Virus record (IMG/VR): IMGVR_UViG_3300047409_000171
Coordinates: 1 to 64,000 of that record
Direction: 5' to 3' (one strand)
Source: a virus
DNA: 64,000 nt
Positions 9,408 to 25,802 of the stretch are shown in pieces; the stretch's first letter is position 1, and the number at the start of each line of letters is the position of its first letter. Below the pieces are notes generated by a model. That model saw only the letters and a list, made by a program, of their open reading frames with translations, was not told where the DNA came from and did not search any database. The position numbers were made by a program, and so were the translations under genes.

Positions 9408-10094
9408 ATGGCTACCGATAAAGTTATATCCCGAAAGGATGCGATGCAAAGGGGGCTTCGCCTGTACTTCACTGGCAAGCCATGCAAGCGAGGCCATGTC
9501 GCACATAGGGACGTTCCTGGTCGCGGGTGTGTGGTTTGCTCAGCGGAGCGAGCGGCATCTGACGCCGCAAAGAAAAGAAGCAAAGAATACAACTCCCGAC
9601 CAGATATTAAAGAGGCAAGAAAGCGGTACAACAAGAAGTACCATGCTGAGCGAGTTTGGACGGAAGAACATCGCGTTAAAGCATTGGCAGCGACCAATAA
9701 ATGGCGAAAAAACAATTTAGAAAAGGCTCGTGAGTTAGACCGCCAGTATGCGGCGAAGCGCGCGGATCAGCGTAGGGCCTACAATCGAGAGTATGCCAAG
9801 AGGAATGCAGAAAAACTCGCCACCAAAGAAAGAAATAAGCGAGCAATAAAACTTCGCAACGGCGGGCGGCATACTAAGGAAGATATAGCAGAAATCCTTC
9901 TTATGCAGCGCGGCAAGTGTGCTTATTGTCGTGTCAAACTCGGCAAAAAATATCACGTCGACCACATCATCCCATCTGTCAAAGGTGGCAGTAATGGTCG
10001 AGAGAACCTTCAAATTCTCTGCGCCTTGTGTAACCACAAGAAACACGCGCGAGACCCCGTTGAGTTTGCGCAGTCATTGGGATTTCTGCTATGA
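9408..10094 (+). CDS. HNH endonuclease (probable homing type)
   Basis: The 228-residue protein has an N-terminal module YFTGKPCKRGH ... CVVC that resembles a small zinc-binding fold. A long basic helical region follows, then an HNH domain at the C-terminus: CAYC, HVDHIIPSVKGGSNGRENL, LCALCNHKK. HNH nucleases cut or nick DNA using a metal held by the two His and Asn. Its place between head genes and its A/T-richer sequence fit a mobile homing nuclease. The downstream glycosyltransferase starts inside its stop. Confidence 0.78.
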   Translation: MATDKVISRKDAMQRGLRLYFTGKPCKRGHVAHRDVPGRGCVVCSAERAASDAAKKRSKEYNSRPDIKEARKRYNKKYHAERVWTEEHRVKALAATNKWRKNNLEKARELDRQYAAKRADQRRAYNREYAKRNAEKLATKERNKRAIKLRNGGRHTKEDIAEILLMQRGKCAYCRVKLGKKYHVDHIIPSVKGGSNGRENLQILCALCNHKKHARDPVEFAQSLGFLL

Positions 10095-11020
10095 GATTAG
10101 TCGTAAGTTTAGCAACGAGAGGCAGACCGGATCGCCTCGTCGACACTATAACCAAATCGTATGCGAACTGGACCGATCCCAACACGGTGATGCAGGTTCA
10201 ATTGGATGCGGATGATCCTACGCTGGATGAAGCGAAGGCAAAATTGAATGACCTCCCTTGCGTTCTGGATAATCGAGTTCTTCTCAACGTCCAAGAGCGA
10301 GAAACAACAATTGCAGCCAAGTGGAACCGGGCTCTTGACGTACCCGGCGACGTCTACCTTGTCGCAGCCGATGACGATCCCTATTGCAGTCCGGGATACG
10401 ACACCAAGATCATAGAGGCCGCCAAGCGGTTCCCTGACGGCATCGGCATGGTTTACGGCCACCTCGCCAACCTGTCGTTCTCCGGTGCCGTAGCCCCCAC
10501 CAGCAAGTTCTGCGAGCTGATGGGCGGCAAGATATTCCCCGAGTATTTCCCATACTGGTTTGTCGACCACTGGACCGACGACGTTGCGCGAATCATTGGC
10601 CGGCTGTCGTTTGCTGCGGTCAAGACGGACCAATCGCGCCCGGGTGTGACGCAGGAGATGCGGGAGCCTGGGTGGTGGGCTACGTGGTTTGACGCGGCTT
10701 ACTTGATGCGGCGCAAGCAGGCGCATGATATCATCAACAGTCCCGATTTTGTGGACGAGTCATGGCACAAGCAGTTACTGCTGACTCACCATCCGCTGAT
10801 CGAAGTCCGTTCGCGCATGATCAACCAGAACGTCCGCCAGCAGAACGCGCAGCTATCGCAGTGGGCGGGCAATTTGAAGCCTGACGAGCGGTACAACCGG
10901 ATTAAGCAGCGGGCGATTGATATGGTGCCGTCGTTGCTGAACGACTACGGGATGCCTGCGCAAGAGCAGGATATGTTCGCCCGCGCGCTGTTGGGCAAGA
11001 CGCTGGAGAGGGCGGCATGA
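10091..11020 (+). CDS. Glycosyltransferase-like protein (GT-A fold)
   Basis: The 309-residue protein opens with a beta strand RLVVSLATRGRPDRL, typical of nucleotide-sugar binding GT-A enzymes. It carries VYLVAADDDPYCSPGY near residue 95, which has the acidic D-x-D metal site. A later part, EPGWWATWFDAAYLMRR, and a helical tail complete it. It would transfer a sugar from a nucleotide donor. Donor and acceptor are unknown. The adjacent sugar genes suggest a heptose-like donor; that is inference. Confidence 0.65.
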   Translation: MRLVVSLATRGRPDRLVDTITKSYANWTDPNTVMQVQLDADDPTLDEAKAKLNDLPCVLDNRVLLNVQERETTIAAKWNRALDVPGDVYLVAADDDPYCSPGYDTKIIEAAKRFPDGIGMVYGHLANLSFSGAVAPTSKFCELMGGKIFPEYFPYWFVDHWTDDVARIIGRLSFAAVKTDQSRPGVTQEMREPGWWATWFDAAYLMRRKQAHDIINSPDFVDESWHKQLLLTHHPLIEVRSRMINQNVRQQNAQLSQWAGNLKPDERYNRIKQRAIDMVPSLLNDYGMPAQEQDMFARALLGKTLERAA

Positions 11021-11460
11021 GGAAAGAGCTTCCAACCAAGCTAGAAGACGGCCGCGTTACTTACGGCCCACTAGCCAGCCGCAAATCAGATGGCGCGTAT
11101 GGTGGGTTTTTTGTTCAAGGACCATGCGGCGCAAGACTCAAAATCATTGCAAGCGGCGGCGATCCTGATGATATCGAATCTCAGGGTTGGGAGCATGTTT
11201 CAGTCTCGACCGAGAGACGGCCGCCGAACTGGCAGGAAATGTGTTTCGTTAAAGACCTATTTTGGTCTGAGGATGAGTGCGCTATCCAATATCATCCACC
11301 CAAATCAGAATACGTGAACAATCATCCTTACTGCCTGCATTTGTGGAGCAGGAGAGACGGAACGATTCCTATGCCGCCATCGATCCTAGTTGGCGTAAAA
11401 AGCCGTGGAGTTCTTTCTGAGGCGGAAGCCAAATATTTGCGCCAGCAAATGGGACTATGA
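11017..11460 (+). CDS. Conserved phage/prophage protein (DUF7694-like)
   Basis: The 147-residue protein contains GWEHVSVSTERRPPNWQEM, VKDLFWSEDECAIQYHPP and YCLHLWSRRDG, with conserved His, Trp and Asp. From memory this pattern matches a small uncharacterised phage family (DUF7694). The function is unknown. It overlaps the neighbouring genes by four bases on each side and so belongs to the same transcript. Confidence 0.55.
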   Translation: MRKELPTKLEDGRVTYGPLASRKSDGAYGGFFVQGPCGARLKIIASGGDPDDIESQGWEHVSVSTERRPPNWQEMCFVKDLFWSEDECAIQYHPPKSEYVNNHPYCLHLWSRRDGTIPMPPSILVGVKSRGVLSEAEAKYLRQQMGL

Positions 11461-12872
11461 TGGACGCGGTTACAGCAGCGGCAGTGCAGGTCCAATGGGA
11501 TGGAAAGCCAAAAACCATTGTGCTGTGCCATGGGTGCTGGGACTTGTGCCACCTCGGGCACATCCGCCATTTGCAGGAAGCCAAAGCGCTTGGCGGGGCG
11601 AATGCCTACCTGATCGTATCGGTCACGGCGGACAAGTGGGTCAACAAGGGCGTAGGCCGTCCGCACTTCAGCCATGAGCAGCGGGCGGAAGCATTGCGAG
11701 CTCTGGAGTGCGTGGACGAGGTGTTTATCAATCACGACGAGGGATGCTGGGAACTAATCCGCAAGATCAAGCCCGCGTTCTACGTCAAGGGTGTGGACTA
11801 CGTCGGGGTATCGACTGAGGGCTTGGAGAAAGAGCGGCAGGCCATAGTTGAGGTCGGCGGCGAACTCCGGTTCACGCATTCAAGGAAGTGGTCATCCTCG
11901 CAGTTGCTCAACACGGAGCGGTTCTCCGACGAGATTTGCGCCTACCTGGAGACGATGAAGGCTGCGGACGCCAAGGGCCGGATATTTGAGGCCTTCGATA
12001 AGGCGGACAAGAAGCAAATCCTGTTCGTTGGCGAGCAGATCGAGGATGTGTATCGGTACGTCCAAGGGCTCGGCCGAGCGTCGAAGGAGTTGATGCTGGC
12101 GACGGTCGAGACCGGCCACGAGACGTTCTCTGGCGGAATTACAGCGTCCCAACTACATGGCGAGTGGCGCAACACCAACGTCGTGACGGGCTCATATCCA
12201 ATCACCAAGACGCGCTACGTCGATTCGGACTTCAACAAGAAGCTGTTTGATGTCTATTCGGCGCGCGAGATCAGCATGACGGCATGGGAGAGGGCCGAGT
12301 TTAGGGACCGCTTGACGGATGCTATTGGCCTCCATGACGTTGTGATCGTGAACGATTTCGGCCACGGTTTGATCGGGGATATTGAGCGGAACGCCTTGCA
12401 GAACACGGGGTTTTTGGCGGTGAACTGCCAGACCAACGCTGGCAATTACGGGTTCAATCTCATCACCAAGTACCCGAAAGCGCACTATGTCTGCATTGAC
12501 GACCCAGAGGCGCGGCTGGCGGCCGGGATGCAGCGGGAGCCCATCTCGAGCGTGGCGTTCTCGCTATCGCAGCGGATGGCCTGCAAGCGGTTCCTGATCA
12601 CCCATGGCCGGTACGGGTCGGACTGGTTCCACCAGAACTCGTCATTCCAGGTTGGCCGCGCGCCAGCGCTGGCTCAAGGCGGGGTGGATACGATGGGCGC
12701 GGGGGATGCAGTGATGGCCGTTACCGCGCCATTGGTCGCCGCGGGGCTCGACATGCAGTCCGTGGCGCTGGTTGGCAACATCGTGGGGGCGATCAAAGTG
12801 TCAATCCTTGGCCACCGTCGGCACGTTGGGCGGCAGGAGATTATTCAGACGGTGGAGGCCCTACTCGCATGA
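11457..12872 (+). CDS. Nucleotidyltransferase-PfkB kinase fusion (HldE-like, reversed order)
   Basis: The 471-residue protein has two domains. Residues 20-160 form a cytidylyltransferase-like fold with the H-x-G-H motif (CWDLCHLGHIRHL) and an S-S-S-Q/T-L-type end (KWSSSQLLN). Residues 175-470 form a ribokinase-type domain with DTMGAGDAVMAV near residue 405, which carries the catalytic Asp. Bacterial HldE does heptose-7-phosphate kinase and heptose-1-phosphate adenylyltransfer, but with the kinase first; here the order is reversed. The SIS and transketolase-like neighbours support an activated heptose-like product. Confidence 0.72.
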   Translation: MMDAVTAAAVQVQWDGKPKTIVLCHGCWDLCHLGHIRHLQEAKALGGANAYLIVSVTADKWVNKGVGRPHFSHEQRAEALRALECVDEVFINHDEGCWELIRKIKPAFYVKGVDYVGVSTEGLEKERQAIVEVGGELRFTHSRKWSSSQLLNTERFSDEICAYLETMKAADAKGRIFEAFDKADKKQILFVGEQIEDVYRYVQGLGRASKELMLATVETGHETFSGGITASQLHGEWRNTNVVTGSYPITKTRYVDSDFNKKLFDVYSAREISMTAWERAEFRDRLTDAIGLHDVVIVNDFGHGLIGDIERNALQNTGFLAVNCQTNAGNYGFNLITKYPKAHYVCIDDPEARLAAGMQREPISSVAFSLSQRMACKRFLITHGRYGSDWFHQNSSFQVGRAPALAQGGVDTMGAGDAVMAVTAPLVAAGLDMQSVALVGNIVGAIKVSILGHRRHVGRQEIIQTVEALLA

Positions 12873-13060
12873 CAGATTTGACGGAAGAATCTCTATCGGA
12901 ACTGATGAAAGCTATTCGTGCCGAGTGGGTGATTAAGCCCATTCAATTGGTAGTCACGCAAGAAGGTATAGCGCGGATGCGCGCACTCTGCGCTGACGAC
13001 CCAGAATTTAAGAAGCGAGTAATCGCAGAATTTCCGCAGGTGGAGGCGTTGCTGGCATGA
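12869..13060 (+). CDS. Hypothetical protein, 63 aa
   Basis: A small helical protein starting MTDLTEESLSELMKA, coupled by ATGA overlaps to the kinase fusion and the next gene. No domain is recognised. Confidence 0.5.
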   Translation: MTDLTEESLSELMKAIRAEWVIKPIQLVVTQEGIARMRALCADDPEFKKRVIAEFPQVEALLA

Positions 13061-13407
13061 GCCTATCATCCGCCTATTCAGGCATGAGTGCGGTCGCGAG
13101 CGAGTTTCAGGTGGCCATAGATTCGATTAAGGATAGGGCTCCGGAGCGTTTCGTGGATGCCGTCATCTGGCAAGACTTCGTCCATGATAGGGTGTCCATC
13201 CGGACAGAATTCGTATTAGTAACGCGGCGCGACATGGATGATGCGCGTAATTCTCGGCATCTAAATTCGCTAGTCGCCGCCCGTGTACTCAAGGCTATCG
13301 GCATCTCCGATGACCCATCTCAACAGGCAAAGCGTCTCCGTACGGAGCGCAGGCAGTTGCTGGCGAGGGGCAAGGAAGCGGCATCACGGAAGGCGCGACT
13401 GGCATGA
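13057..13407 (+). CDS. Hypothetical protein, 116 aa
   Basis: A mixed alpha/beta protein with a basic C-terminal helix (RRQLLARGKEAASRKARLA). It is coupled to neighbours on both sides by four-base overlaps. No domain is recognised. Confidence 0.5.
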   Translation: MSLSSAYSGMSAVASEFQVAIDSIKDRAPERFVDAVIWQDFVHDRVSIRTEFVLVTRRDMDDARNSRHLNSLVAARVLKAIGISDDPSQQAKRLRTERRQLLARGKEAASRKARLA

Positions 13408-13973
13408 ATGCGAGGTTCAAATTGGCGGAAATATCATGCCGCTACGAGGCTCTGACCAATGGCTTGGCCGATATCCGCTCCGAGCCCAACGCCTACCAGA
13501 CCGTAATCGACATGATCACCCACATGGGCAACGGCAAGGCGCGGCTGTTCTTCGTGGGCAACGGTGGGTCGGCGGCGGTCGCTTCGCATTGCGCAATTGA
13601 CTACATGAAGGCAGGCGGGTTCGCCACGTTCGGACCTGGGGACGCTGCGCAGATGACGTGCATCGGGAATGATCTCGGGTTCCATAACGTGTACTCGCTG
13701 CCGATTGAACGGCATGGGCAATTGGGCGACGTGCTGTTTGCTATTTCTAGTTCAGGGATGAGCGAGGACATTCTAGACGCGGTGGCGACTGCTAGGCGCA
13801 AGATGATGAACGTAGTCACCCTCAGTGGTTTCGGAGAGGGCAATTTCCTTCGCAAGAAGGGGCAGGTTAACTTCTACGTGCCGTCGAATCGGTATGGCGT
13901 CGTGGAAATAGCGCATCTGGCCATCCTGCATTCGATACTGGACGAAGTGGTTGAATTGGAGAGGCAAAAATGA
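13404..13973 (+). CDS. SIS-domain isomerase, GmhA-like
   Basis: The 189-residue protein is a single SIS domain: VGNGGSAAVASHCAIDYMK (phosphosugar loop), CIGNDLGFHNVYS, GDVLFAISSSGMSEDIL and VVEIAHLAILHS. It aligns by eye with sedoheptulose-7-phosphate isomerase GmhA. The metal-ligand His residues are present, but the Glu that follows the first His in E. coli GmhA is Asp here. It would make a heptose-7-phosphate, the substrate expected for the kinase fusion upstream. Another phosphosugar substrate cannot be excluded. Confidence 0.75.
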   Translation: MNARFKLAEISCRYEALTNGLADIRSEPNAYQTVIDMITHMGNGKARLFFVGNGGSAAVASHCAIDYMKAGGFATFGPGDAAQMTCIGNDLGFHNVYSLPIERHGQLGDVLFAISSSGMSEDILDAVATARRKMMNVVTLSGFGEGNFLRKKGQVNFYVPSNRYGVVEIAHLAILHSILDEVVELERQK

Positions 13974-14668
13974 AACGCACCAAGAAAGCCAAGCCGTTCG
14001 TCTTTAAGGCCAAGCCACTCACGCGGGCGCAGAAGGCAAAACGAACCAGAGACCGCAATGAGTTGACGAAGCGAATGCGGGCAATGGACCCCTTCTATGT
14101 CCATCCCGATACTGTTCCGGCCGGCAAGGCCTACCAATGGTTTTCGTTGGAAATACTTGGTGCCTCAAACGAGGACGCTATTGACCGCGCCAAGGACGAC
14201 GGATGGAAGGATGTTCCATTTTCTCGACATGACTTTGGCCGTAGATGCAACGCAAAGGGCAGGATTGTCGTTGATAATTCCGTTCTCATGGAGAACAGCG
14301 CCGAGATCGTGGCTGGTGCCCTAAAGAAGGACCAAGCCGCCGCGCGGCAGATGATTGCCGACAACCCCATAGGGGCTTCAAAACAGGAGGGGCACCCTTT
14401 CCCGATTGTGAGCGAAAGTTTTGTCATATCTTCTTTCTATGAGACAGTACCGCGTGATGCCGCACCAGTGGTTGTCCCAGTGACAATATCGGTTCGGATG
14501 GATGCTGGATGGCAGGACGCTGCTGTTGGCCTTGGTCTATCCAATGAGGAATACGCGCGCCGCCGCCTGCTGATGACGATGCCAATTCTTGCTGGAGAAC
14601 CAGCCGGCGACAATGATGCAGTATATGAACCTGTTACATTGCGCGTCGAGCTGGAGCGGAAGAAATGA
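13970..14668 (+). CDS. Unnamed family protein, copy C
   Basis: The 232-residue protein begins with a very basic stretch (KRTKKAKPFVFKAKPLTR). Then come VPAGKAYQW, DDGWKDVPFSRHD and VVDNSVLMENSAE, matching the genes at 8081 and 8649. Its C-terminal part (LSNEEYARRRLLM) also matches copy A. It is the only head-type gene inside the sugar cassette. Duplication from copy A followed by relocation is likely, or the island grew between them. Confidence 0.6.
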   Translation: MKRTKKAKPFVFKAKPLTRAQKAKRTRDRNELTKRMRAMDPFYVHPDTVPAGKAYQWFSLEILGASNEDAIDRAKDDGWKDVPFSRHDFGRRCNAKGRIVVDNSVLMENSAEIVAGALKKDQAAARQMIADNPIGASKQEGHPFPIVSESFVISSFYETVPRDAAPVVVPVTISVRMDAGWQDAAVGLGLSNEEYARRRLLMTMPILAGEPAGDNDAVYEPVTLRVELERKK

Positions 14669-14853
14669 CGAAAGAGTTTCTCGTCAAAAAGAAGGATTCC
14701 AGAGAAGCCGCATTTGAGGCGGTTCAAGCTGAACTGGCGGTATATCTTTTGGGGAACGACAATCCGTCGTGGAAATATCTGATCAAGCCGGAAGCATTGT
14801 ACGGCAAGGGCGGCTGGCGGGCCTACGCTCGCATTGAATGGAATAAGAAATGA
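14665..14853 (+). CDS. Hypothetical protein, 62 aa
   Basis: A small Lys-rich protein (MTKEFLVKKKDSREAAFEAV ... GGWRAYARIEW) coupled by four-base overlaps to both neighbours. The function is unknown. Confidence 0.5.
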   Translation: MTKEFLVKKKDSREAAFEAVQAELAVYLLGNDNPSWKYLIKPEALYGKGGWRAYARIEWNKK

Positions 14854-15431
14854 CTGCAGAGGAATTGCTGGCATTCGAGGCCGACATCGCCGCCGAATTC
14901 GAGGCCGCGAAGATCGCCGCGCCCGTGCACCTCGCTGGCGGGAATGAGCAGGCTTTGATTGAACTGTTCAAGGACATCAAAGACGAGGATTATATTTGCT
15001 GCGGCTGGCGTTCTCATTACCACGCGCTGCTCAAGGGAGTCCCTCCGGAAGTTCTCAAAGCCTCGATCATGGAAGGTCGGTCGATTGCCCTCTGCTTCCC
15101 ATCGCATCGGATGATCAGTTCGGCCATCGTTGGCGGCATCTGCCCGATTGCGCTAGGCATCGCATGGACATTGAAGCGCCAAGGAAAGCCCGGCAAAGTG
15201 TGGGTGTTTTTGGGGGACATGACCTGTTCAACCGGGATTTTCACCGAGACCATGCGCTATGCGATGGGCCACGACTTGCCGATCCAGTTCATCATGGAGG
15301 ACAACGGCATGTCGGTTTGCGCTCCGACGCGGGAGGTGTGGGGGCTGGCCGGTGCTCCGCCGCCGTTCTTTGGGTATGCGTATGAGCTTACGAGGCCGCA
15401 CGTTGGAATTAACAAGTGGATTTCGTTCTGA
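14850..15431 (+). CDS. TPP-dependent enzyme, alpha-type subunit (transketolase/E1-like)
   Basis: The 193-residue protein carries the TPP-binding signature GDMTCSTGIFTETMRYAM ... FIMEDNG, in which the GD and the distal N hold the magnesium-pyrophosphate. It also has CGWRSHYHALLKG, like the substrate channel of E1-alpha and transketolase N-terminal domains. It is shorter than E1-alpha (about 330 residues) and lacks the usual C-terminal extension. The matching PYR-type subunit lies just beyond the methyltransferase. It could make a sugar phosphate for the SIS isomerase, but the reaction is not fixed by sequence. Confidence 0.68.
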   Translation: MTAEELLAFEADIAAEFEAAKIAAPVHLAGGNEQALIELFKDIKDEDYICCGWRSHYHALLKGVPPEVLKASIMEGRSIALCFPSHRMISSAIVGGICPIALGIAWTLKRQGKPGKVWVFLGDMTCSTGIFTETMRYAMGHDLPIQFIMEDNGMSVCAPTREVWGLAGAPPPFFGYAYELTRPHVGINKWISF

Positions 15432-16414
15432 TGGGTAAGCCCCTCGCGATTGACCTTTTCTGCGGCCTCGGCGGCTGGACTGACGGCCTGTTAGCCGAAG
15501 GCTACGACGTGATCGGTTTCGACATTGAGCGGCATCAGTACGGCGAGCACCGCTATCCCGGCTCGCTGGTCATTCAGGACGTTTGCACGTTGCACGGATC
15601 GCAGTTCAAAGATGCCACGCTGATCGTCGCCTCCCCGCCCTGCCAGGAATACAGCTACATGGCGATGCCATGGAAGCGTGCGAAAGCCAAAGCTGCAGCG
15701 ATTCGGGCCGACGAAACCGGCAAGATGCTGGCGGACCTAAACCGCCTATTCGATGCCTGTTTTCGCATCCAGAAAGAGGCGAGCATCGCGGCTGGCCGGC
15801 ATATCCCGTGCGTGGTTGAGAACGTGCGCGGGGCAATCCCGTGGGTTGGCCGGAGCCGTTGGAATTTCGGCAGTTTTCACCTCTGGGGCGACGTGCCGGC
15901 GCTGATGCCGATGACAGCCAAGGCGATCAAAGTACCAACAATGGGCGCGGGCTGGTATCCGCCAGGCCATCCGAAACACGTCCCCGGGTTAGGCTTCAAC
16001 ACGCATGCTGAGCGCAACATGCGTGAGGACATCAAGAACGTGGGCGGCTCATGGTTTGCTGTGGCGCACAACACGACAAGCGGGAAGGGGCAAAATCCGG
16101 ATGGGCGTAAACTGCCCGGCTTCCGCTTCGACGGCTCTGGAAAGACTTTCCAGAGCGCGAGCGTTGCGGCGACCGGAACGAAGGTTCCGAGCGGCCTGGG
16201 TCGGCGCACCGACCCAGGCAAGGGCGCACGCTTTACCTCGCGCGACTGCGGGATAGAGGGCACCAAGAACGGAAACGACTGGTTTGGGTCCGGCGAAAAC
16301 TGTTCGCTGCAACGTAAGCACGGTTCCAAGTCGGGCGGTCGCAAGATGGCATCCGCCCTGATCGCCAAGATTCCGCTCCCTCTCAGCCGGCATATCGCGG
16401 TGACCTTCCGATGA
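15431..16414 (+). CDS. C5-cytosine DNA methyltransferase
   Basis: The 327-residue protein shows motif I (AIDLFCGLGGWTDGL) for AdoMet binding, motif IV (SPPCQEYS) with the catalytic Cys near residue 71, and motif VI (VVENVRG). The region between motifs VIII and X is long and Gly/Lys-rich. ATG 15431 overlaps the preceding stop (TGATG), and its own stop overlaps the next ATG. No partner restriction enzyme is seen, so an orphan protective methylase is likely. It sits exactly between the two TPP subunits. Confidence 0.85.
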   Translation: MGKPLAIDLFCGLGGWTDGLLAEGYDVIGFDIERHQYGEHRYPGSLVIQDVCTLHGSQFKDATLIVASPPCQEYSYMAMPWKRAKAKAAAIRADETGKMLADLNRLFDACFRIQKEASIAAGRHIPCVVENVRGAIPWVGRSRWNFGSFHLWGDVPALMPMTAKAIKVPTMGAGWYPPGHPKHVPGLGFNTHAERNMREDIKNVGGSWFAVAHNTTSGKGQNPDGRKLPGFRFDGSGKTFQSASVAATGTKVPSGLGRRTDPGKGARFTSRDCGIEGTKNGNDWFGSGENCSLQRKHGSKSGGRKMASALIAKIPLPLSRHIAVTFR

Positions 16415-16947
16415 CATACCATGACGAACTTGCCATAGCGATGAACCTTCTCGCCGATGACGAGAGGACAATCTTCCTTGGTCAGGGAGTCGCATGTGGC
16501 GGTACCTCAATGGCGTCGACGCTTAAAGATATTCCGATGGCGAAGCGCATTGAAATGCCGGTCGCCGAAGAAATGCAGACAGGCATGGCGGTTGGGATGT
16601 CACTGCGGGGGCTGATCCCCATATCGATCATACCACGCTGGAACTTCATGCTTCGCGCCGCCGATGCCATCGTCAATCACCTCGACCGCCTATCGCTATA
16701 TTCGGACTACCGCCCCAAGGTCATCATCCGCACCGCCGTCCCCAGCAAGTCCCCGTTCAATCCGGGCCCCCAGCACGACGACGACTTCACCGGCGCATTC
16801 CGTGCTATGCTGCGCACAACCGACGTCGTCTGCCTGCAGTCCGAGGAAGATATCGTCCCGCAGTACCAGAAGGCGCTGCACTCGCCGCGGAGTACAATCA
16901 TTGTGGAATTCACTGATTTTTACCGGAATGCGAGGGGCAATGGCTGA
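16411..16947 (+). CDS. TPP-dependent enzyme, beta-type (PYR) subunit
   Basis: The 178-residue protein matches the pyrimidine-binding domain of E1-beta and transketolases: LGQGVACGGTSM, MPVAEEMQTGMAVGMSLRGL (the Glu that activates TPP), and LRAADAIVNHLDRLS. It ends after about 175 residues, so the C-terminal transketolase domain found in full E1-beta chains is absent. Together with the alpha-type subunit at 14850 it could form a minimal alpha-2 beta-2 enzyme. Confidence 0.65.
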   Translation: MTYHDELAIAMNLLADDERTIFLGQGVACGGTSMASTLKDIPMAKRIEMPVAEEMQTGMAVGMSLRGLIPISIIPRWNFMLRAADAIVNHLDRLSLYSDYRPKVIIRTAVPSKSPFNPGPQHDDDFTGAFRAMLRTTDVVCLQSEEDIVPQYQKALHSPRSTIIVEFTDFYRNARGNG

Positions 16948-17152
16948 GAGCAAGAACAACACGGCGCTTCATGTTACGGTCCATTTTGGAAGCGGCGTGC
17001 CGTTCGATGTGCAGGGCGTCGCATTATTGGATTTCGAGAGGAAGCTACGTACATTGATGGGAGGGGCTATCGTCGAGGTTTTCAAGGAAGCCAAGGATGA
17101 CGATAGCAAGCTTCGATCAATGATGACGCCGGCTCAAAGGAACAAGCTATGA
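16940..17152 (+). CDS. Hypothetical protein, 70 aa
   Basis: A small protein (MAESKNNTALHVTVHFGSGV) of strand-helix character. It overlaps the upstream gene by eight bases and the radical SAM gene by four. No domain is recognised. Confidence 0.5.
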   Translation: MAESKNNTALHVTVHFGSGVPFDVQGVALLDFERKLRTLMGGAIVEVFKEAKDDDSKLRSMMTPAQRNKL

Positions 17153-18315
17153 CAACGCCCATGCCAGAGTTCGTTGATTCTATCGTTGGAGGATCGCACG
17201 ATCTACAACTCGATGGGACCAAAATTGGCTGGTACAAGGAGCGCGTGTTGGCCTACATGCGCGGCGAAAAGATTGCACCGATTACGATGGACGTCGCCCT
17301 TACTCGCCGCTGTCAGAGTGCCTGCAGATTCTGTTATGCATCGCTTCAATCTTCGGATGGAGGTGGAGAGATTACCAAGCAGCAAGCATTCGAGTTTTTT
17401 GAGGATGCTGCCGAGATTGGAGTTCGAGGAATTTCACTGATCAGCGATGGTGAGAGCACCAACGTTCCGTATTACGTTGAGGCAATCGAATACGCGGCGT
17501 CGCTCGGCCTTCAACTCGGGATTTCATCCAACGGCATATTGCTGACGCCAAATGTTCTCGAAAAGATCATGCCGTCGCTATCGTACCTTCGTTTCAATTT
17601 CTCCGGCGGTGAGCGCAAGCGCTACGCTGAGATTATGGGAATGAAGCAAGTGTGGTTCGACAAAATACAGGACCACATCAGGGCGGCGATGGAGATCAAG
17701 CGGCGCGATAAACTAGCGACCAACGTGAATATTCAGTTCGTTGTGGCCCCTGTGGATGCGGATCAAATCTTGCCATTTGCTAGGCTGGCGAAGAAGATTG
17801 GGAACTCTGTTCCGGACAACGGCGGTTTTTACGGAATCATGAAACATTGTGCTGATAGCGCGGACAACGCTCTCGGCGTTGACTACAAACAATACAGCGA
17901 CTTGTTTCCTCTATTCGAGGAGGCGGAAGCAATGAGCGATGAGAATTGCAAGATCGTTGTGAAGTGGAGTCGCATTCAAGACGAAGGCAAGCGTCACTAC
18001 ACTCGCTGCATGGGACCGCCTTTTATTTTGCAGATGAGCGGGTCCGGGCTCATCGCTCCGTGCGGACAGAAATTCAACAACAAATACGCCAAATTTCACA
18101 TCGGCCATATCCAGACTCAGCGCTTCCGAGACATCTTCAAGAGCGACCGCTACTGGGATGTTCTTGGCTATCTTAGTGGCGGCATGTTCCGCCCGGACCT
18201 AGAATGTGGCGAAAATTGTTTGCAGCAAAATAGCAACCAATGGTTGTCAGACTATGTTGATGGCAAGGTTGATTTTCCGTCGTCTCCTCCTCCTCCTCAC
18301 TTAGGATTTCTATAA
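17149..18315 (+). CDS. Radical SAM enzyme with C-terminal Cys cluster
   Basis: The 388-residue protein has CQSACRFC at residues 55-62, the C-x3-C-x2-C that binds the 4Fe-4S cluster cleaving AdoMet. It continues with ISLISDGESTN (GGE-like position) and ISSNGILL. The C-terminal 100 residues hold further Cys (CMGPPF, APCGQK, ECGENC) spaced like a SPASM/twitch domain. Substrate is unknown: sugar, peptide or base modification are all possible. Its place beside the sugar genes makes sugar chemistry attractive, but that is inference. Confidence 0.8.
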   Translation: MTTPMPEFVDSIVGGSHDLQLDGTKIGWYKERVLAYMRGEKIAPITMDVALTRRCQSACRFCYASLQSSDGGGEITKQQAFEFFEDAAEIGVRGISLISDGESTNVPYYVEAIEYAASLGLQLGISSNGILLTPNVLEKIMPSLSYLRFNFSGGERKRYAEIMGMKQVWFDKIQDHIRAAMEIKRRDKLATNVNIQFVVAPVDADQILPFARLAKKIGNSVPDNGGFYGIMKHCADSADNALGVDYKQYSDLFPLFEEAEAMSDENCKIVVKWSRIQDEGKRHYTRCMGPPFILQMSGSGLIAPCGQKFNNKYAKFHIGHIQTQRFRDIFKSDRYWDVLGYLSGGMFRPDLECGENCLQQNSNQWLSDYVDGKVDFPSSPPPPHLGFL

Positions 18316-18316
18316 C

Positions 18317-18952
18317 ATGAGCGGACCAAAAGGCCCATGGGATAAAACTTGCTATCAATGCAAGGAAACAAAACCAACAGACCAATTCGCAAAACGCAGC
18401 AGCAAGTCCCTGCGTCTGTACCGCAATATCTGCACCGACTGCTGGAACGCTTATTATCGTAAATTGAGAGACACCGATGAGCGTCGTGCTAAGGACGCTG
18501 CCAAAATGAGGGAGTGGCGCGGTAACCCAGAGAATAAAGAGAAAGAAAGAAAAAGGCGCCATGCCGCCAATGCGGCTAGCCCTGCCACTGTTTTTAGAAT
18601 GGCGATTCACAACGCCAGAATGAGAGCTCCCATTGAGATTACACGAGATGACTTGTGGAGGTTATGGGAAGCGCAACATGGCAAGTGTGCATTAACTGGC
18701 ATTGCTATGACGTGGGCAAAAGGCAAAATTCAACCTACGTCCATTTCTCTGGATCGTATTGATTCATCGCTCAATTATACTGTCGACAATGTTCGCTTCA
18801 TTTGTCATGCGGTTAATGCCTTCAAGGGCGTTGGTAGTGATGATGAAATGCTCGTCATGGCCCGCGCCATCGTCGCGAAGGCCGACGAATCCGAACCTTC
18901 ATGGCGCGGCTTCGGCTACAGCGCCAACGACCATATCCTGATGGTGCATTGA
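18317..18952 (+). CDS. HNH-like endonuclease (probable homing type)
   Basis: The 211-residue protein has two N-terminal Cys pairs (CYQC, CTDC), a basic helical region, and a C-terminal HNH-like core: CALTG, SISLDRIDSSLNYTVDNVRFIC, VNAFKG. It begins one base after the radical SAM stop. The sequence is visibly A/T-richer than its neighbours, in keeping with a mobile gene. Confidence 0.7.
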   Translation: MSGPKGPWDKTCYQCKETKPTDQFAKRSSKSLRLYRNICTDCWNAYYRKLRDTDERRAKDAAKMREWRGNPENKEKERKRRHAANAASPATVFRMAIHNARMRAPIEITRDDLWRLWEAQHGKCALTGIAMTWAKGKIQPTSISLDRIDSSLNYTVDNVRFICHAVNAFKGVGSDDEMLVMARAIVAKADESEPSWRGFGYSANDHILMVH

Positions 18953-19627
18953 ATGGCCCTCACCCAATCCTCCCCCAAATTCTGGGCACCAAACCAGCGC
19001 GTTCTGGACTATCTGACCAACGAAGTCATCGCCAAGGACGCCAAGGTTCTGGACGTCGGGCCCGGGCATGCGCCATTCAAGCGGGCGAACGTATCAGTTG
19101 ATTTTGTCGACGTGCCTGGCGTTGCCAATCTGGTGAAGTGCGATCTGGCGAATGAACCGCTGCCGTTTGCAGATAAGGAGTTCGATTTCGTCTACGCGCG
19201 GCATATCCTCGAGGATATGTTCAACCCGTTCCCGCTGATTAAGGAAATGCAGCGCGTTGGCAAAGCTGGGTATATTGAATGCCCGTCGCCGATTGCTGAG
19301 TTAGGTCGCGGCGTTGATGGCGGCTCTCCGCCGTTCCGCGGATTTCACCACCATCGATACATCACATGGATGTTCGGCAAGGAACTGCGGCTGATCTCGA
19401 AATACCCGTTCGTCGAGTACCTGAAGTTTGACGATGCGGCGATCGACAAGATGCTGGCGCAGGACCGCTACTGGAATACTTATTGCTGTTGGGAGGGGGA
19501 GATTACATTCGCGCACCGACAGTCTCCATTGAATTTTGACATTCCTCGCGACTACGCGCTGATCCTGAATGAGGCGATGGAGCGGTCGAAGGAAGCGACG
19601 GACATTTTCTTCTCCAACATCAAGTGA
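18953..19627 (+). CDS. SAM-dependent methyltransferase (class I)
   Basis: The 224-residue protein has a Rossmann motif I (VLDVGPGHAPF), then VDFVDVPG (acidic end of strand 2), and FDFVYARHILEDMFNP (motif IV-like), as in the Methyltransf_11 group. It would methylate a small molecule, sugar or protein. Being in the sugar cassette suggests O-methylation of a glycan. It follows the HNH stop directly. Confidence 0.7.
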   Translation: MALTQSSPKFWAPNQRVLDYLTNEVIAKDAKVLDVGPGHAPFKRANVSVDFVDVPGVANLVKCDLANEPLPFADKEFDFVYARHILEDMFNPFPLIKEMQRVGKAGYIECPSPIAELGRGVDGGSPPFRGFHHHRYITWMFGKELRLISKYPFVEYLKFDDAAIDKMLAQDRYWNTYCCWEGEITFAHRQSPLNFDIPRDYALILNEAMERSKEATDIFFSNIK

Positions 19628-19631
19628 CGCC

Positions 19632-19817
19632 GTGGACGAATACGTCAAAGCCAATAATTACGGTGCATGGGCCATTGGCCAGCCGCTTAAAAATGGACGA
19701 TTCCAAGTGCGTCGGGTAGTATGGGGAACCATAATGGCGCGGTCCGAAAAGCGCGAAGGCGAACAAATCCGTCGCGCCGAAATCAACGTCAGAAAGCCGA
19801 TAAAGCAATCCAAATGA
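19632..19817 (+). CDS. Small basic protein, GTG start
   Basis: The 61-residue product begins at GTG 19632 (VDEYVKANNYGAWAIGQP) and ends in a very basic helix. An internal ATG at 19734 could instead be used. The stop overlaps the HNH/AP2 start by four bases. The function is unknown. Confidence 0.4.
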   Translation: MDEYVKANNYGAWAIGQPLKNGRFQVRRVVWGTIMARSEKREGEQIRRAEINVRKPIKQSK

Positions 19818-20329
19818 AGCCACGCGAAGCATCACTCAGCCACGAAACCCTAACGCGGGTGCTGGACTACGATCCAGCAACCGGGGTTTTCGTGTGGAAA
19901 GAGCGCACGTCAAATCGGGTCAAGGTAGGTGCGGCGGCTGGCAACGTAACTCCCTTCGGATACATGTCGATCCAATTATTGGGATGGGCCTACCTCGCGC
20001 ACCGCCTGGCATGGTTTTACGTTCATGGTGTCTGGCCTAAAGAGGAAGTAGACCATCGTGATGGTGATGGGATTAACAACAAACTCTCGAATTTGAGAGA
20101 GGCTAACAGCTCACAGAATAAAATGAACCGAAGGCCACGGCCAGAGACCAAGGTTGGTCTTAAGGGAGTTTATCTCCACAAAGAAAATCCGCCTCAGTAT
20201 AGGGCTCGGATTAAGTCGGCCGATGGGAAAGTGCATCACTTGGGTTTGTTCCCAACGGCTGAAGAAGCTCACGCTGCATACGCTGCGGCATCACATAAGT
20301 ATCATGGCGAATATGGGAGAAGTACTTGA
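19814..20329 (+). CDS. HNH-AP2 homing endonuclease
   Basis: The 171-residue protein has an HNH core: AHRLAWFYVHG, EEVDHRDGDGINNKLSNLRE and SSQNKMN. An AP2-like DNA-binding domain follows (KGVYLHKENPPQYRARI ... LGLFPTAEEAHAAYAAAS). This is a standard layout of phage homing endonucleases. ATG 19814 overlaps the upstream stop. Confidence 0.82.
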   Translation: MKPREASLSHETLTRVLDYDPATGVFVWKERTSNRVKVGAAAGNVTPFGYMSIQLLGWAYLAHRLAWFYVHGVWPKEEVDHRDGDGINNKLSNLREANSSQNKMNRRPRPETKVGLKGVYLHKENPPQYRARIKSADGKVHHLGLFPTAEEAHAAYAAASHKYHGEYGRST

Positions 20330-21105
20330 TGGCAAAGGACATTTTTATTTTTTGCCCTGCCTTCGGTCAGATTATTACCGCTACCACGTTCCTTACGACA
20401 CACGCGGTTCGAGCCCTACTCGGCTCCAAGGGGATTGGCGGCGGGATATCAACGCTATCCTTTCCGGATATTGCGGAACTCCGCTCCATGGCCCTCACGA
20501 TTTGGGCAGACACCATGCCCAATAGCACCCATATCCTGTTCATCGATTCCGATATGGGTTTCCCGCCTGAACTGGTCACCGATATGATCATGTTCGACGA
20601 ACCTTTGGTCGGCTGCATCTATCCGCAGCGTAAGCTTCCGCTCTCGTGGGCAGGCTCTGGGACGGGAGATAGCGTCACTGAGCGGCGTGGCGACTTCATG
20701 GAATGCGAAGGAGTTGGTTTTGGGTGCACTCTGATCCGCCGCGATTGCGTGGAGAAGATGATAGAGAAATACCCCGAGCTGATCGACACGCGCCTGCATC
20801 TCCACCCGGCCGGCGATACGTTGCGCCAAACCGGCACGAATCGCCTCTTGCGTTTCTTCGAGAAATTAGACCTTCCGGAACGCGGGGTGGTGTCGGAGGA
20901 TTTGTCGTTCTGCATTCGGTGGCGGAATTGCAGCCCTGACAACAAGGTCTGGGCCGCGATCGGGCACCGGATCAGCCATGTTGGGCCGTATGATTTTGCG
21001 GCGCGGTATTTGGATATTGTTGAGCAGCAGCCCCAAGTGGCGGCGATGGAGGCGGTGAAGCCGATGTCGGACGAGCAGATTGCGCTGTTGCCGGCGGCGG
21101 AGTGA
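20329..21105 (+). CDS. Glycosyltransferase-like protein (GT-A fold)
   Basis: The 258-residue protein has a central THILFIDSDMGFPPELV with a D-x-D metal site near residue 65, and an EGVGFGCTLIRR stretch as in family-2-like transferases that read a rim loop. The C-terminus contains VSEDLSFCIRW, the acidic E-D pair of the catalytic base. It is the last gene of the sugar cassette. ATG 20329 (TGATG overlap) was preferred over TTG 20326. Confidence 0.65.
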   Translation: MAKDIFIFCPAFGQIITATTFLTTHAVRALLGSKGIGGGISTLSFPDIAELRSMALTIWADTMPNSTHILFIDSDMGFPPELVTDMIMFDEPLVGCIYPQRKLPLSWAGSGTGDSVTERRGDFMECEGVGFGCTLIRRDCVEKMIEKYPELIDTRLHLHPAGDTLRQTGTNRLLRFFEKLDLPERGVVSEDLSFCIRWRNCSPDNKVWAAIGHRISHVGPYDFAARYLDIVEQQPQVAAMEAVKPMSDEQIALLPAAE

Positions 21106-22992: not shown

Positions 22993-23391
22993 ATGGTTAA
23001 GCAACCAAAACCGCAACATGCTGGGGAATGCCCCGGCTGCTTTCGCAAATCGGTTGGCTGTTCCAGCCCCGATTGCCCGATGACCATGCTGGCCAAGCTT
23101 CGCGCCGACCGCGATTTTGCGGCGACCCATGGCGACCACGCGGAAGCGTTGATCCTTAACGACCGGATTAACGACCTCAAGTCTGGCTCGATCAGTGGAA
23201 CTGTCGAGCGTGTCACACAGCAATTTGAGAGCAACTTGACCCGAAGGCGGTACTACGCACATCAGATCATCTGCCAGTGTCCATCCTGTCAGGGTCGCGG
23301 ATACACCAATCCGGCTTTTAATTGCCGATGGTGCGCAGGAACCGGCGTCGTCTCGGAAGAGGACGCTGCGGCTTTCGGCCCGGAGAACTGA
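22993..23391 (+). CDS. Passenger protein with DnaJ-type zinc pairs
   Basis: The 132-residue protein has an N-terminal Cys group (CPGCFRKSVGCSSPDC), a central helix, and a C-terminal CQCPSCQGRGYTNP ... CRWCAGTG like half of a DnaJ zinc-finger region. It probably binds zinc; its partner is unknown. A similar C-x2-C-x-G-x-G protein is encoded at 63106. Confidence 0.6.
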   Translation: MVKQPKPQHAGECPGCFRKSVGCSSPDCPMTMLAKLRADRDFAATHGDHAEALILNDRINDLKSGSISGTVERVTQQFESNLTRRRYYAHQIICQCPSCQGRGYTNPAFNCRWCAGTGVVSEEDAAAFGPEN

Positions 23392-23394
23392 GCC

Positions 23395-24438
23395 ATGCCT
23401 CCCTATGCCGACGTGCTGAAATGGGAACATCTGCCGTTCCCCAAGTCCCTGCCCAGCTTCCAAAAGCTGTTCCCGGATGATGCCGCTTGCGCCTCGTACC
23501 TGGAGCGCGTGCGGTGGGAAAAAGGCTTCGTCTGCCCGCTGTGCGAGGCCAAGGGTGAGCCCTACCGCTTCACCGCTCGCCCCGGCGTGCTGCGCTGTAA
23601 GGCATGCAGACAGGACACGGCTTTGACGGCCGGAACGGTCATGGAGCGGACCCGAACGCCGCTTACCGTGTGGTTTTGGGGCGCTTATCTCGTTGCGAGC
23701 ATGACGCCCGGCCTTTCGGCTATGCAATTTCAGAGGCAGCTTGGCCTCACCCGATACGAAACCGCCTTCCAAGTCCTGCACAAGCTGCGGGCTGGAATGG
23801 TGCGCCCCGACCGTGACCGGATCGGCGGTGCCATCGGCATCAAGGACCACGTTGAGGTGGACGAAACCTACATCGGTGGCTCGATCCGGGGCGAAGGTAA
23901 AGGCGTCCATGCTGACGACAAGTCCATCGTGATCGCTGCTGTTGAGGTTCGGACCCGGCCGCCCAAGAAAGGCGACAAGCCGACCCGTCGCGGCGGTCGA
24001 TATGCCGGACGGCTGCGGATGGAAGTCATCAGCGACCGCACCGCGCAATCCATGGTCAACTTCGTTGAAGCGGCTGTGGCACCAGGCGCGATGGTCGTGA
24101 CGGACGGCGCGCCCGGCTACGCCAGCCTGACCAAAAAGGGCTTCGAACATCTGCCGGTTGTCGAAGCTGGCAACCCCGAGGTGGCGGAAGAATACCTGCC
24201 CATCGTTCACCTTGTCTTTTCGAACCTGAAAAGCTGGCTGACCGGATGCCACCACGGGGTCAGCCCTCAACATCTGCAGGCTTACCTCAATGAGTTCACG
24301 TTCCGCTTTAACCGGCGGTTCTACCCGTTCAACGCCTTCCGCTCGCTGCTCGGCATCGGCGCAGGCAATGAAAGCCCGACCTATGACGAGCTTTACAGCG
24401 GAGAGTGGGAACACCCTAGGATTAGTGATCATGGGTGA
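23395..24438 (+). CDS. IS1595-family transposase
   Basis: The 347-residue protein has an N-terminal zinc ribbon (CPLCEAKG ... CKAC), then a DDE-type core: HVEVDETYIGG with the first Asp and MVVTDGAPGYASL with the second. It ends with YLNEFTFRFNRRFYPFNAFRSLL, the typical E/N-containing block of the ISXO2-like group. It seems complete and would cut and join the element ends. Confidence 0.88.
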   Translation: MPPYADVLKWEHLPFPKSLPSFQKLFPDDAACASYLERVRWEKGFVCPLCEAKGEPYRFTARPGVLRCKACRQDTALTAGTVMERTRTPLTVWFWGAYLVASMTPGLSAMQFQRQLGLTRYETAFQVLHKLRAGMVRPDRDRIGGAIGIKDHVEVDETYIGGSIRGEGKGVHADDKSIVIAAVEVRTRPPKKGDKPTRRGGRYAGRLRMEVISDRTAQSMVNFVEAAVAPGAMVVTDGAPGYASLTKKGFEHLPVVEAGNPEVAEEYLPIVHLVFSNLKSWLTGCHHGVSPQHLQAYLNEFTFRFNRRFYPFNAFRSLLGIGAGNESPTYDELYSGEWEHPRISDHG

Positions 24439-24680: not shown

Positions 24681-24754
24681 GGACCACAAGCATTAAGGTG
24701 ATGCACCGGCCTCTTAACCCGGGGAACACGGATCGTTACCGTGGTGGTCCACCA
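24681..24754 (+). tRNA. tRNA-Lys (CTT)
   Basis: Acceptor GGACCAC/GTGGTCC, discriminator A, CCA encoded. D stem GCAT/ATGC. Loop CTCTTAA gives CTT. It has the same C-C at 31-39 as the first Lys tRNA, and T stem CACGG/CCGTG. Confidence 0.72.
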
Positions 24755-24761
24755 TTTCTAT

Positions 24762-24835
24762 GCGGCTATAGTTCAAAGGCAGATCGCCCGGTTGTCAACC
24801 GGAGGACGGGGGATCGATACCCCCTAGCCGCGCCA
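24762..24835 (+). tRNA. tRNA-Asp (GTC)
   Basis: Acceptor GCGGCTA/TAGCCGC, discriminator G, CCA encoded. Stem CCCGG with loop TTGTCAA gives GTC. G73 fits Asp. Confidence 0.85.
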
Positions 24836-24836
24836 T

Positions 24837-24912
24837 CTCTGCGAAGCTCGTGCAGGAAGAGCACCCGCCTTGGAAGCGGGAGGTCGGTGGTCGGAGCACC
24901 GCGTGGAGACCA
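24837..24912 (+). tRNA. tRNA-Pro (TGG)
   Basis: Acceptor CTCTGCG/CGTGGAG with two G-T pairs, discriminator A, CCA encoded. Stem CCCGC/GCGGG encloses CTTGGAA, giving TGG. A37 replaces the G usual in Pro tRNAs. Ser(GGA) is excluded by the short variable loop. Confidence 0.68.
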
Positions 24913-24916
24913 ATTC

Positions 24917-24992
24917 GGGCGTTGAGCCAGATGGGACGGCCGGCTGCTCATAACAGTCAGAGGACGGGGTTCGATTCCCCGACGGTCCACCA
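24917..24992 (+). tRNA. tRNA-Met-type (CAT)
   Basis: Loop CTCATAA in stem GGCTG/CAGTC gives CAT; T arm CGGGG-TTCGATT-CCCCG is regular; CCA is encoded. The acceptor GGGCGTT/ACGGTCC has two mismatches. It could be elongator Met or an Ile tRNA modified at C34. Confidence 0.65.
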
Positions 24993-24997
24993 TTTAT

Positions 24998-25073
24998 TCC
25001 CGTAGAGCCATCTAGGTGAGGGCGGCCGGCTGTTAACCGGCGAAGGCGCGTTCGAATCGTGCTGCGGGAGCCA
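24998..25073 (+). tRNA. tRNA-Asn (GTT)
   Basis: Acceptor TCCCGTA/TGCGGGA, G73, CCA encoded. Stem GCCGG/CCGGC with loop CTGTTAA gives GTT. T arm GCGCG-TTCGAAT-CGTGC. Confidence 0.87.
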
Positions 25074-25077
25074 ACAC

Positions 25078-25151
25078 GCTGCTATCGTCTAATGGAAGGA
25101 TGCTGGTCCCTCAAACCGGCGGTGCGGGGTCAGAACCCGCTAGCAGCTCCA
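25078..25151 (+). tRNA. tRNA, probably Glu (CTC)
   Basis: Acceptor GCTGCTA/TAGCAGC, CCA encoded. Loop CCCTCAA in stem CTGGT/ACCGG gives CTC, but position 33 is C, not T, and the discriminator is T, as in Gly tRNAs. The D-arm sequence (ATCGTCTAATGG) also recalls Gly and Gln tRNAs. Identity is uncertain. Confidence 0.6.
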
Positions 25152-25152
25152 T

Positions 25153-25231
25153 ACTCGCGTAACCGGCCGTGATTACGAATCACAGGAACCGTAACTGGAG
25201 CATGGGAGTTCGACTCTCCCCGCGAGTGCCA
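25153..25231 (+). tRNA. Atypical tRNA-Arg-like (ACG), D arm missing
   Basis: Acceptor ACTCGCG/CGCGAGT, G73, CCA encoded, and a regular T arm GGGAG-TTCGACT-CTCCC. The anticodon hairpin (loop TTACGAA, anticodon ACG) starts only about 15 bases in, so no D arm fits. About 19 bases follow it before the T arm and contain a near repeat of the lead segment (TAACCGG and TAACTGG). Confidence 0.5.
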
Positions 25232-25238
25232 TTTTCAT

Positions 25239-25315
25239 CTGCGTGTAGCTCAGTCAGGTAGAGTACACCCCTCGGAAGGGTGGGGCCGCAGGATCGAAGC
25301 CTGCCACGCAGACCA
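25239..25315 (+). tRNA. tRNA-Pro (CGG)
   Basis: Acceptor CTGCGTG/CACGCAG, A73, CCA encoded. D stem GCTC/GAGT. Stem CACCC/GGGTG with loop CTCGGAA gives CGG. A37 again, as in the other Pro tRNA here. Confidence 0.82.
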
Positions 25316-25318
25316 TTT

Positions 25319-25388
25319 TGCGGAGACCAAGGCGGTAAGTCCGGCTCTGAACCGGATGAAGTGGGATCGTGCCCTACCTCCGCAGCCA
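25319..25388 (+). tRNA. tRNA-Gln (CTG)
   Basis: Acceptor TGCGGAG/CTCCGCA, G73, CCA encoded. Stem TCCGG/CCGGA with loop CTCTGAA gives CTG. The D arm is short, total length 70. Confidence 0.8.
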
Positions 25389-25392
25389 ACAC

Positions 25393-25467
25393 GGCGCATT
25401 GTCAGAGCGGTCATGTGCTCGCCTGCAAAGCGATGCTAGGGGTGTTCGACTCACCCATGCGCCTCCA
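25393..25467 (+). tRNA. tRNA-Cys (GCA)
   Basis: Acceptor GGCGCAT/ATGCGCC, T73 as expected for Cys, CCA encoded. Loop CTGCAAA gives GCA. Confidence 0.85.
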
Positions 25468-25468
25468 C

Positions 25469-25550: not shown

Positions 25551-25551
25551 T

Positions 25552-25628: not shown

Positions 25629-25633
25629 ATTCT

Positions 25634-25722: not shown

Positions 25723-25726
25723 ATCT

Positions 25727-25801: not shown

Positions 25802-25802
25802 C

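Follow-up and report, generated by a model that had tools for sequence, protein, structure and literature searches.

A phage gene cassette between portal and capsid genes with candidate enzymes for carbon-branched sugar synthesis

Phages that carry nucleotide-sugar genes are known and, to our knowledge, few of them have an identified product. Ketone acceptors are known for three superfamilies of thiamine diphosphate (ThDP, also thiamine pyrophosphate, TPP) enzymes: the decarboxylase type, alpha-keto acid dehydrogenase 2 (alphaKADH2) and transketolase. The available portion of PMC12247030, which describes these, also reports that YerE-like and alphaKADH2 enzymes form C-branched sugars, typically with pyruvate as the donor, and that viruses may hold unexplored ketone-accepting or sugar-branching members. 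The accessible parts of PMC10338323 and PMC4753412 describe E1-like pairs as the proposed enzymes for eurekanate and paulomycose, and YerE as the enzyme for yersiniose. Here we describe a plus-strand run of genes at positions 9408-21105 of IMG/VR virus record IMGVR_UViG_3300047409_000171, within the stretch analysed (the window, 64,000 nt of a 70,155-base record). The cassette encodes a split TPP enzyme, a radical S-adenosylmethionine (SAM) enzyme, sugar-phosphate enzymes and two glycosyltransferases (GT1 and GT2). It very probably specifies a nucleotide-sugar pathway, and the full proposal that it builds and attaches a carbon-branched sugar is, in our judgement, evenly balanced.

The cassette lies downstream of a portal-like gene (2699-4996; PHROG match, E 1.9e-5) and upstream of a gpT-type major capsid protein (MCP) gene. 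All cassette genes, the MCP gene and the p200 gene before it are on the plus strand, and four-base overlaps occur at 12 of the 17 junctions in the run. An initial annotation had recognised genes for sugar nucleotides and glycosylation within the head module; its gene coordinates are correct, as is its remark that four-base overlaps join most of the genes. The enzyme classes it named were upheld by Pfam, PHROG and NCBIfam, with Pfam alone recovering the nucleotidyltransferase-kinase fusion (NTK), the SIS isomerase, the split TPP pair, the radical SAM enzyme and the SAM methyltransferase, and AlphaFold models confirming its two GT-A-like transferases. With isomerase, kinase, nucleotidyltransferase and GT-A transferases all present, the glycosylation assignment stands. 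That inventory did not mention a Dcm-like gene, three HNH genes, a DUF7694 gene and a 70-residue gene (s70).

Eleven IMG/VR contigs, found with TPP and NTK protein queries, have a common layout with local gains and losses. Their shared order is portal, GT1, NTK, isomerase, TPP enzyme, s70, radical SAM, methyltransferase, GT2, p200 and MCP. Some compared stretches (e.g., L002, L004, L022; loci are numbered L) end early on one side; GT1, NTK, s70, radical SAM and GT2 are invariant in every complete stretch of the lineage. When the cassette was searched at the nucleotide level against GenBank phages, no match was obtained. For wider comparison, we used the best 80 viral matches of the radical SAM enzyme and 80 bacterial loci kept out of at least 197 stretches with relatives of it. 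Distinct loci are those with distinct radical SAM proteins. A locus has full context if the sequence extends for 7 kb or more before the radical SAM gene and for 6 kb or more after it; loci short of this (10/28 lineage, 27/47 other viral and 41/79 bacterial) were left out of the full-context counts. We assign to the lineage every locus with a GT2 match and, in addition, L116 and the window.

The TPP enzyme of the window is minimal and split into two subunits. TPPa (14850-15431) is a 193-residue E1-alpha-type subunit (PF00676, E1_dh, 1.3e-10), conserved in an alignment of its homologues. In NCBIfam it scores as a 2-oxoacid E1 (PDH_E1_alph_y, 1.6e-19) rather than as a transketolase (0.0033). TPPb (16411-16947) is a 178-residue E1-beta-type subunit (PF02779, Transket_pyr, 1.7e-7) that aligns with its homologues. 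Both exceed the PF00676 and PF02779 cut-offs and are of the E1 alpha/beta type found in alphaKADH2 pairs. As described in the available portions of the published accounts, AviB1/AviB2, Pau11/Pau12, EvdU5/EvdS3 and KbDH alpha/beta are likewise E1-type alpha and beta proteins of sugar clusters; unlike these, the phage subunits are minimal, and the beta subunit consists of the pyrimidine domain only, without Transketolase_C.

Five relatives (L021, L023, L024, L027 and L028) lack the TPP pair and instead encode a TPP enzyme of about 600 residues after the radical SAM gene. In a PDB search, the proteins of two of these sister phages matched 8rph first (E 2.6e-119 and 9.1e-110) and then 5ahk (5.2e-85 and 1.5e-83), which we take to be YerE of Pseudomonas protegens (PpYerE); other listed acetolactate synthases were weaker (best 3.1e-74 and 7e-70). 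A bacterial member gave the same ranking (8.8e-123 vs 4.8e-80). By the ranking of these matches, the sister-phage enzyme is nearer to YerE-like enzymes than to acetolactate synthases. Its nearest relative among PDB sequences, 8rph, is JanthE, a YerE-like enzyme that joins 2-oxoacids to ketones according to the accessible part of PMC12188165. The phage systems differ from the yersiniose type of branching in that the window itself has an E1-type pair and that the gene context is a radical SAM enzyme with a partner, without a short-chain dehydrogenase/reductase (SDR) in the lineage. A third type, a split transketolase, is encoded in L038, and a transketolase-type pair also occurs in L096.

Every full-context lineage locus has exactly one TPP type (18/18: nine E1, eight YerE-like and one split transketolase). 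A TPP enzyme is also encoded in 20/20 other viral loci (15 E1, 4 YerE-like, 1 transketolase) and in 35/38 bacterial loci (25 E1, 4 YerE-like, 4 transketolase, 2 with both E1 and transketolase; 3 have none). Thus, 73 of the 76 distinct full-context radical SAM loci have one, and E1 and YerE-like types occur together in 0/76. A radical SAM tree (a quick build under LG+G4 with SH-aLRT support only, in which transketolase-type loci were scored as E1 or none) requires at least nine switches between E1 and YerE-like types, three of them inside the lineage, and places the window within a mostly YerE-like clade. We conclude from these type changes and from the nesting of the window that the swap happened repeatedly. 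The types that alternate in the phage cassette belong to the same three superfamilies as those listed in the available portion of PMC12247030. Unrelated enzymes that are repeatedly exchanged presumably share a job, and we infer that the job common to the three types would be carbon-carbon ligation to a carbonyl. For this cassette, the TPP enzyme is probably a carbon-carbon ligase acting on a keto-sugar. Separately, the YerE-like gene of L108 (7147-9616) is split into two reading-frame pieces by another open reading frame (ORF), which may be an intron or insertion.

In the initial annotation, the TPP pair was a transketolase that supplies sedoheptulose-7-phosphate for an ordinary NDP-heptose on virions or DNA, which leaves the radical SAM enzyme incidental and without a step. 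This part of the interpretation does not hold up well: TPPa scores as E1-type, a JanthE/YerE-like enzyme takes its place in sister phages, transketolase-type pairs occur in 1/18 lineage loci, and a TPP enzyme accompanies the radical SAM gene in 38/38 full-context viral loci. A YerE-like enzyme would not obviously serve where a transketolase feeds heptose synthesis. The transketolase route does find some support in the pairs of L038 and L096, in the GmhA- and HldE-like homology discussed next and in a similar cyanophage gene set that is annotated as heptose genes. Overall, we regard it as improbable. The interpretation in the initial annotation is thus partly supported, and we redirect it from heptose supply to sugar branching.

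The NTK (11457-12872) combines an HldE-type nucleotidyltransferase (PF01467, 4.3e-14; residues 17-150) with a C-terminal PfkB kinase (PF00294, 3.5e-11; residues 245-464), the reverse of the domain order of HldE. It scores 96.4 bits against the HldE equivalog NF008454 (cut-off 521), 92.6 against rfaE_dom_II (181.5) and 55.7 against rfaE_dom_I (345). The GmhA-like SIS isomerase (13404-13973; PF13580, 1.7e-10) scores 82.0 bits against the GmhA equivalog TIGR00441 (cut-off 209.45). Aligned to Escherichia coli GmhA (2i22), it retains His180 and has Asp in place of Glu65, the two residues that we take to be catalytic. The isomerase, kinase and nucleotidyltransferase classes are those of the HldE/GmhA heptose pathway, but the scores lie far under the cut-offs, the domain order is reversed and Glu65 is substituted; the low scores and the substitution also count against the transketolase route. 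These proteins belong to the broad GmhA and HldE families, and a heptose product is plausible, a lead rather than a result because the equivalog cut-offs are missed so widely. Also encoded is a SAM-dependent methyltransferase (18953-19627; PF08241, 2.3e-6), present in 15/18 lineage loci. The glycan clusters of Synechococcus phages S-SM2 and S-SSM7 resemble the cassette in having nucleotidyltransferase, kinase and isomerase genes and, in S-SM2, a TPP protein. They differ in that these are separate genes, accompanied by epimerases, in large T4-like genomes, and the radical SAM enzyme has no match in those stretches.

The radical SAM/SPASM enzyme (17149-18315; PF04055, 7.4e-13) has a CX3CX2C motif and four auxiliary cysteines, invariant in 13 homologues, as expected for the superfamily. 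The same cysteines are kept in a jumbo phage (LR756501, 735 kb), where genes for TPPb, radical SAM and TPPa are adjacent. Among the PDB profile matches of the family are the sugar-acting DesII and BlsE, and BtrN for the auxiliary domain. The enzyme resembles these three weakly, through such matches and a BtrN-like auxiliary domain; similarity is low, and the phage or bacterial enzyme usually has a partner protein. We know of no partner protein for BtrN, DesII or BlsE. A sugar oxidase or dehydrogenase is our proposed reading, and the assignment of ketone formation to this enzyme is tentative.

The distribution of SDR genes bears on the source of the ketone. An epimerase/dehydratase-type SDR is encoded in 16/16 viral TPP loci that lack the radical SAM gene (L005-L020), in 0/18 lineage loci that have it and in 5/20 other viral radical SAM loci. 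This pattern suggests that the radical SAM enzyme can replace an SDR as ketone former in phages.

Immediately before the radical SAM gene is s70 (16940-17152, ATG start at 16940), which matches no Pfam family and is present in 18/18 lineage loci. The predicted 70-residue protein matches the C-terminal part (profile positions ~305-366 of 378) of a bacterial protein of about 370 residues, and so looks like a reduced form of that partner domain. The C-terminus carries a conserved end motif, KDxNxIRRL-like in the bacterial partners and DDSKLR in the phages. The bacterial partner also lacks a Pfam family in the three proteins examined; its gene directly precedes the radical SAM gene in L120 and L135 and follows it in L121. 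The 80 bacterial stretches include Azospirillum, Nisaea, Pelagibacter, Herbaspirillum, Omnitrophota, Elusimicrobia and others, and one (L116) is a contig of the phage lineage. Among these 80 loci, 45 have an NTK fusion of the same domain order, 38 the partner protein, 32 a protein of the E1-beta-type cluster, 26 one of the E1-alpha-type cluster and 21 a GmhA-like isomerase. An acyl carrier protein-like reading of the DSK motif of s70 was dropped; the serine is missing from most bacterial partners. Some YerE-like members (L024, 12100-13461; L025; L026; L027) encode a 454-residue protein without a Pfam family between s70 and the radical SAM enzyme.

Radical SAM/SPASM enzymes often modify peptides. 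It is therefore conceivable that this one is a peptide maturase that acts on s70, or on the partner C-terminus in bacteria, and that the modified partner serves the sugar pathway or something else. The constancy of the pair (s70 or partner in 18/18 lineage and 28/38 full-context bacterial loci), the near-invariant C-terminal motif and the presence of PqqE and SkfB among the sequence matches are all in keeping with maturation. Yet the constant neighbours are TPP, kinase, nucleotidyltransferase and isomerase genes, and a core peptide is not recognisable. We consider peptide maturation quite unlikely and retain a sugar substrate as the preferred reading for the radical SAM enzyme.

Neither glycosyltransferase matches a Pfam family. 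GT1 (10091-11020) matches a PHROG glycosyltransferase family (E 0.0016), and its AlphaFold (AF2) model (predicted local distance difference test, pLDDT, 79.9) has a predicted GT-A fold. Its nearest Foldseek matches are bacterial and archaeal transferases, with PcManGT (6yv7, 1.3e-6) best and SpsA and TarP also present. GT2 (20326-21105) matches an unnamed PHROG family (E 1.8e-15), and its AF2 model (pLDDT 75.8) likewise has a predicted GT-A fold. The GT2 model is nearest to the LH3 glycosyltransferase domain (VIA-align Z 15.3, root-mean-square deviation 3.6, 175 residues) and to STIV A197 (Z 14.1), and its structural matches also include the PBCV-1 capsid glycosyltransferase (2p6w, 5.8e-5). 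GT1 is encoded in 18/18 lineage loci, and the pair is rare in other viral radical SAM loci (GT1 1/20, GT2 0/20).

The MCP (27700-28614; PF10124, 4.5e-6; phrog_371, 6.6e-8) and p200 (26443-27045; phrog_37556, 1.3e-6), a small conserved protein encoded before it, are candidate acceptors of the sugar. Homologues of p200 also precede the MCP gene in L034 and L035. A scan with the capsid protein, which was not seeded by the cassette, identified GT2 in all 8 loci whose MCP is at least 83% identical and whose upstream sequence spans 4 kb or more (L037, L049, L197, L199, L200, L202, L204 and L205; L202 is too short to judge the radical SAM gene). All 43 MCP matches at or above 83% identity have GT2, but most of these came via the cassette. 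At 82% identity or below, 35 loci have upstream sequence of 4 kb or more, among them L034 and L035 of the phage collection, and the tested cassette genes were found in 0/35. As a separate observation, the MCP is ~84-95% identical between the window and lineage members and the portal only ~46-63%, an unusual contrast. In four other phages that we checked, the core is encoded beside tail, minor head, terminase/portal (packaging) or baseplate genes.

Gene location therefore somewhat favours the virion as the target of glycosylation. The sugar might instead be destined for a glycan of the infected host, either on the cell surface or free, with superinfection exclusion as one conceivable role. Bacterial versions of the pathway indeed have SDR and DegT genes around them, as is typical of surface-polysaccharide loci, and the GT1 Foldseek list also contains the lipid-linked transferases GtrB and ArnC. 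However, the cassette lies between portal and capsid genes in syntenic relatives, GT1 and GT2 are conserved together with the MCP, GT2 has structural matches in the PBCV-1 capsid transferase and STIV A197, and no flippase or polymerase family was identified among 30 window proteins run against Pfam. We judge a host glycan unlikely.

The sugar might also decorate phage DNA, as in phages that arabinosylate hydroxymethylcytosine; phages that glycosylate cytosine are described in the available portion of PMC12838424. A gene of the C5-cytosine methyltransferase type (Dcm-like; 15416-16414; PF00145, 1.7e-6; phrog_363, 8.4e-13) is located between those for the TPP subunits. This gene has no homologue in the 11 syntenic relatives, and the thymidylate-synthase family (PF00303) was not found in the 70-kb record, which is possibly incomplete. 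DNA decoration thus appears very improbable, and the virion remains the favoured target.

Taken together, the enzymes can be arranged in a five-step scheme. The GmhA-like isomerase and NTK, whose classes are established, would convert a sugar phosphate, perhaps sedoheptulose-7-phosphate, to a nucleotide sugar. The radical SAM/SPASM enzyme with s70 may then oxidise a hydroxyl to a ketone. TPPa/TPPb, as an E1-type enzyme, could decarboxylate a 2-oxoacid such as pyruvate and add the two-carbon unit to the ketone to form a tertiary-alcohol branch, as the mutually replacing enzymes suggest. The methyltransferase may modify the sugar, and GT1 and GT2 would attach it; from the location of the genes, the most likely acceptor is a head protein.

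Several observations weigh against this scheme. MoaA and PqqE are the best PDB profile matches of the radical SAM family, and the oxidase step is weak because they outrank the sugar enzymes. SDR replacement is not general, since an SDR is encoded nearby in 28/38 bacterial radical SAM loci and the jumbo-phage locus has both genes; in addition, the 16 SDR loci without a radical SAM gene are related marine-type phages and not independent. The bacterial loci are full of varied sugar genes and do not settle the SDR question. The isomerase is missing from L028 and L038. No GmhB-type phosphatase is seen in the Pfam annotation of the cassette proteins, in agreement with the initial annotation. The transketolase-type pair, present in one lineage locus (L038) and a few others, fits sedoheptulose phosphate supply too. 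GT1 and GT2 are adjacent in L204 and L205, yet neither record has a radical SAM match, so these transferases can act without this sugar. The case for virion glycosylation is one of gene context. Finally, the locus search was seeded with the radical SAM enzyme and the loci are not independent; a Fisher p of 1.9e-12 obtained from locus counts leaves their kinship out of account.

The two transferases seem able to exist apart from the sugar module, which may have entered between GT1 and GT2. The best explanation is that the sugar-making core is a bacterial pathway taken up by several phage lineages and set, here, between two transferases. A bolder proposal, which we consider rather unlikely, is a previously undescribed pathway common to bacteria and phages, in which a nucleotide keto-sugar is formed by a radical SAM enzyme together with its dedicated partner, and the carbon branch is added by a ThDP carboligase that can be drawn interchangeably from any of three superfamilies. 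Phages would have trimmed it (70-residue partner, 193- and 178-residue TPP subunits), and its product, a higher-carbon branched sugar, would cover the virion. Among the papers listed from openly licensed literature, we recognised none that describes a phage or bacterial version of the cluster; the available portions of PMC12838424 (DNA pentosylation) and PMC2853527 (phage radical SAM clusters) do not describe this gene set.

The comparative evidence points to a single chemistry that can be tested, in which an activated sugar gains a carbon branch. In phages as well as in many bacterial phyla, the radical SAM enzyme and its partner, which has no Pfam family, keep company with a TPP enzyme, so the function, once solved in a single phage, would annotate many surface-polysaccharide loci. 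Should virions carry the sugar, it may matter for the stability and host range of phages and for their recognition by immune systems.

Four further genes of the run are accessory, as is the Dcm-like gene. The four encode an HNH endonuclease (9408-10094; PF01844, 1.9e-11), a DUF7694 protein (11017-11460; PF24746, 6.9e-29) with a homologue in 0/11 relatives, a putative HNH-like protein (18317-18952) with weak zinc-ribbon matches only, and a second HNH endonuclease (19721-20329; PF13392, 1.4e-12). We take the protein at 18317-18952 to be HNH-like from inspection by eye and homology to L021:15346-16104; its gene fills the slot of the YerE-like gene in sister phages (compared in L021, L023, L024 and L027). 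The HNH, DUF7694 and Dcm-like genes and several small genes represent local additions; most relatives have nothing corresponding at these positions. The cassette of L021 has its own additions, a mannose-6-phosphate-isomerase-type cupin and a DUF1330 protein (13026-13950).

Between the cassette and a group of tRNA genes, positions 22993-24438 encode an IS1595-type transposase (23395-24438) and a DnaJ-zinc-like ORF, with no homologue in the compared relatives. Fourteen tRNA genes follow within the head module (24681-26197), and an Rfam scan identified tRNAs only. The 67-kb contig L116 was binned in a Rhizobiales metagenome-assembled genome, a weak hint of a host. Also encoded is a DUF5131 protein (58344-59183; 2e-63), adjoining a DnaB helicase gene.

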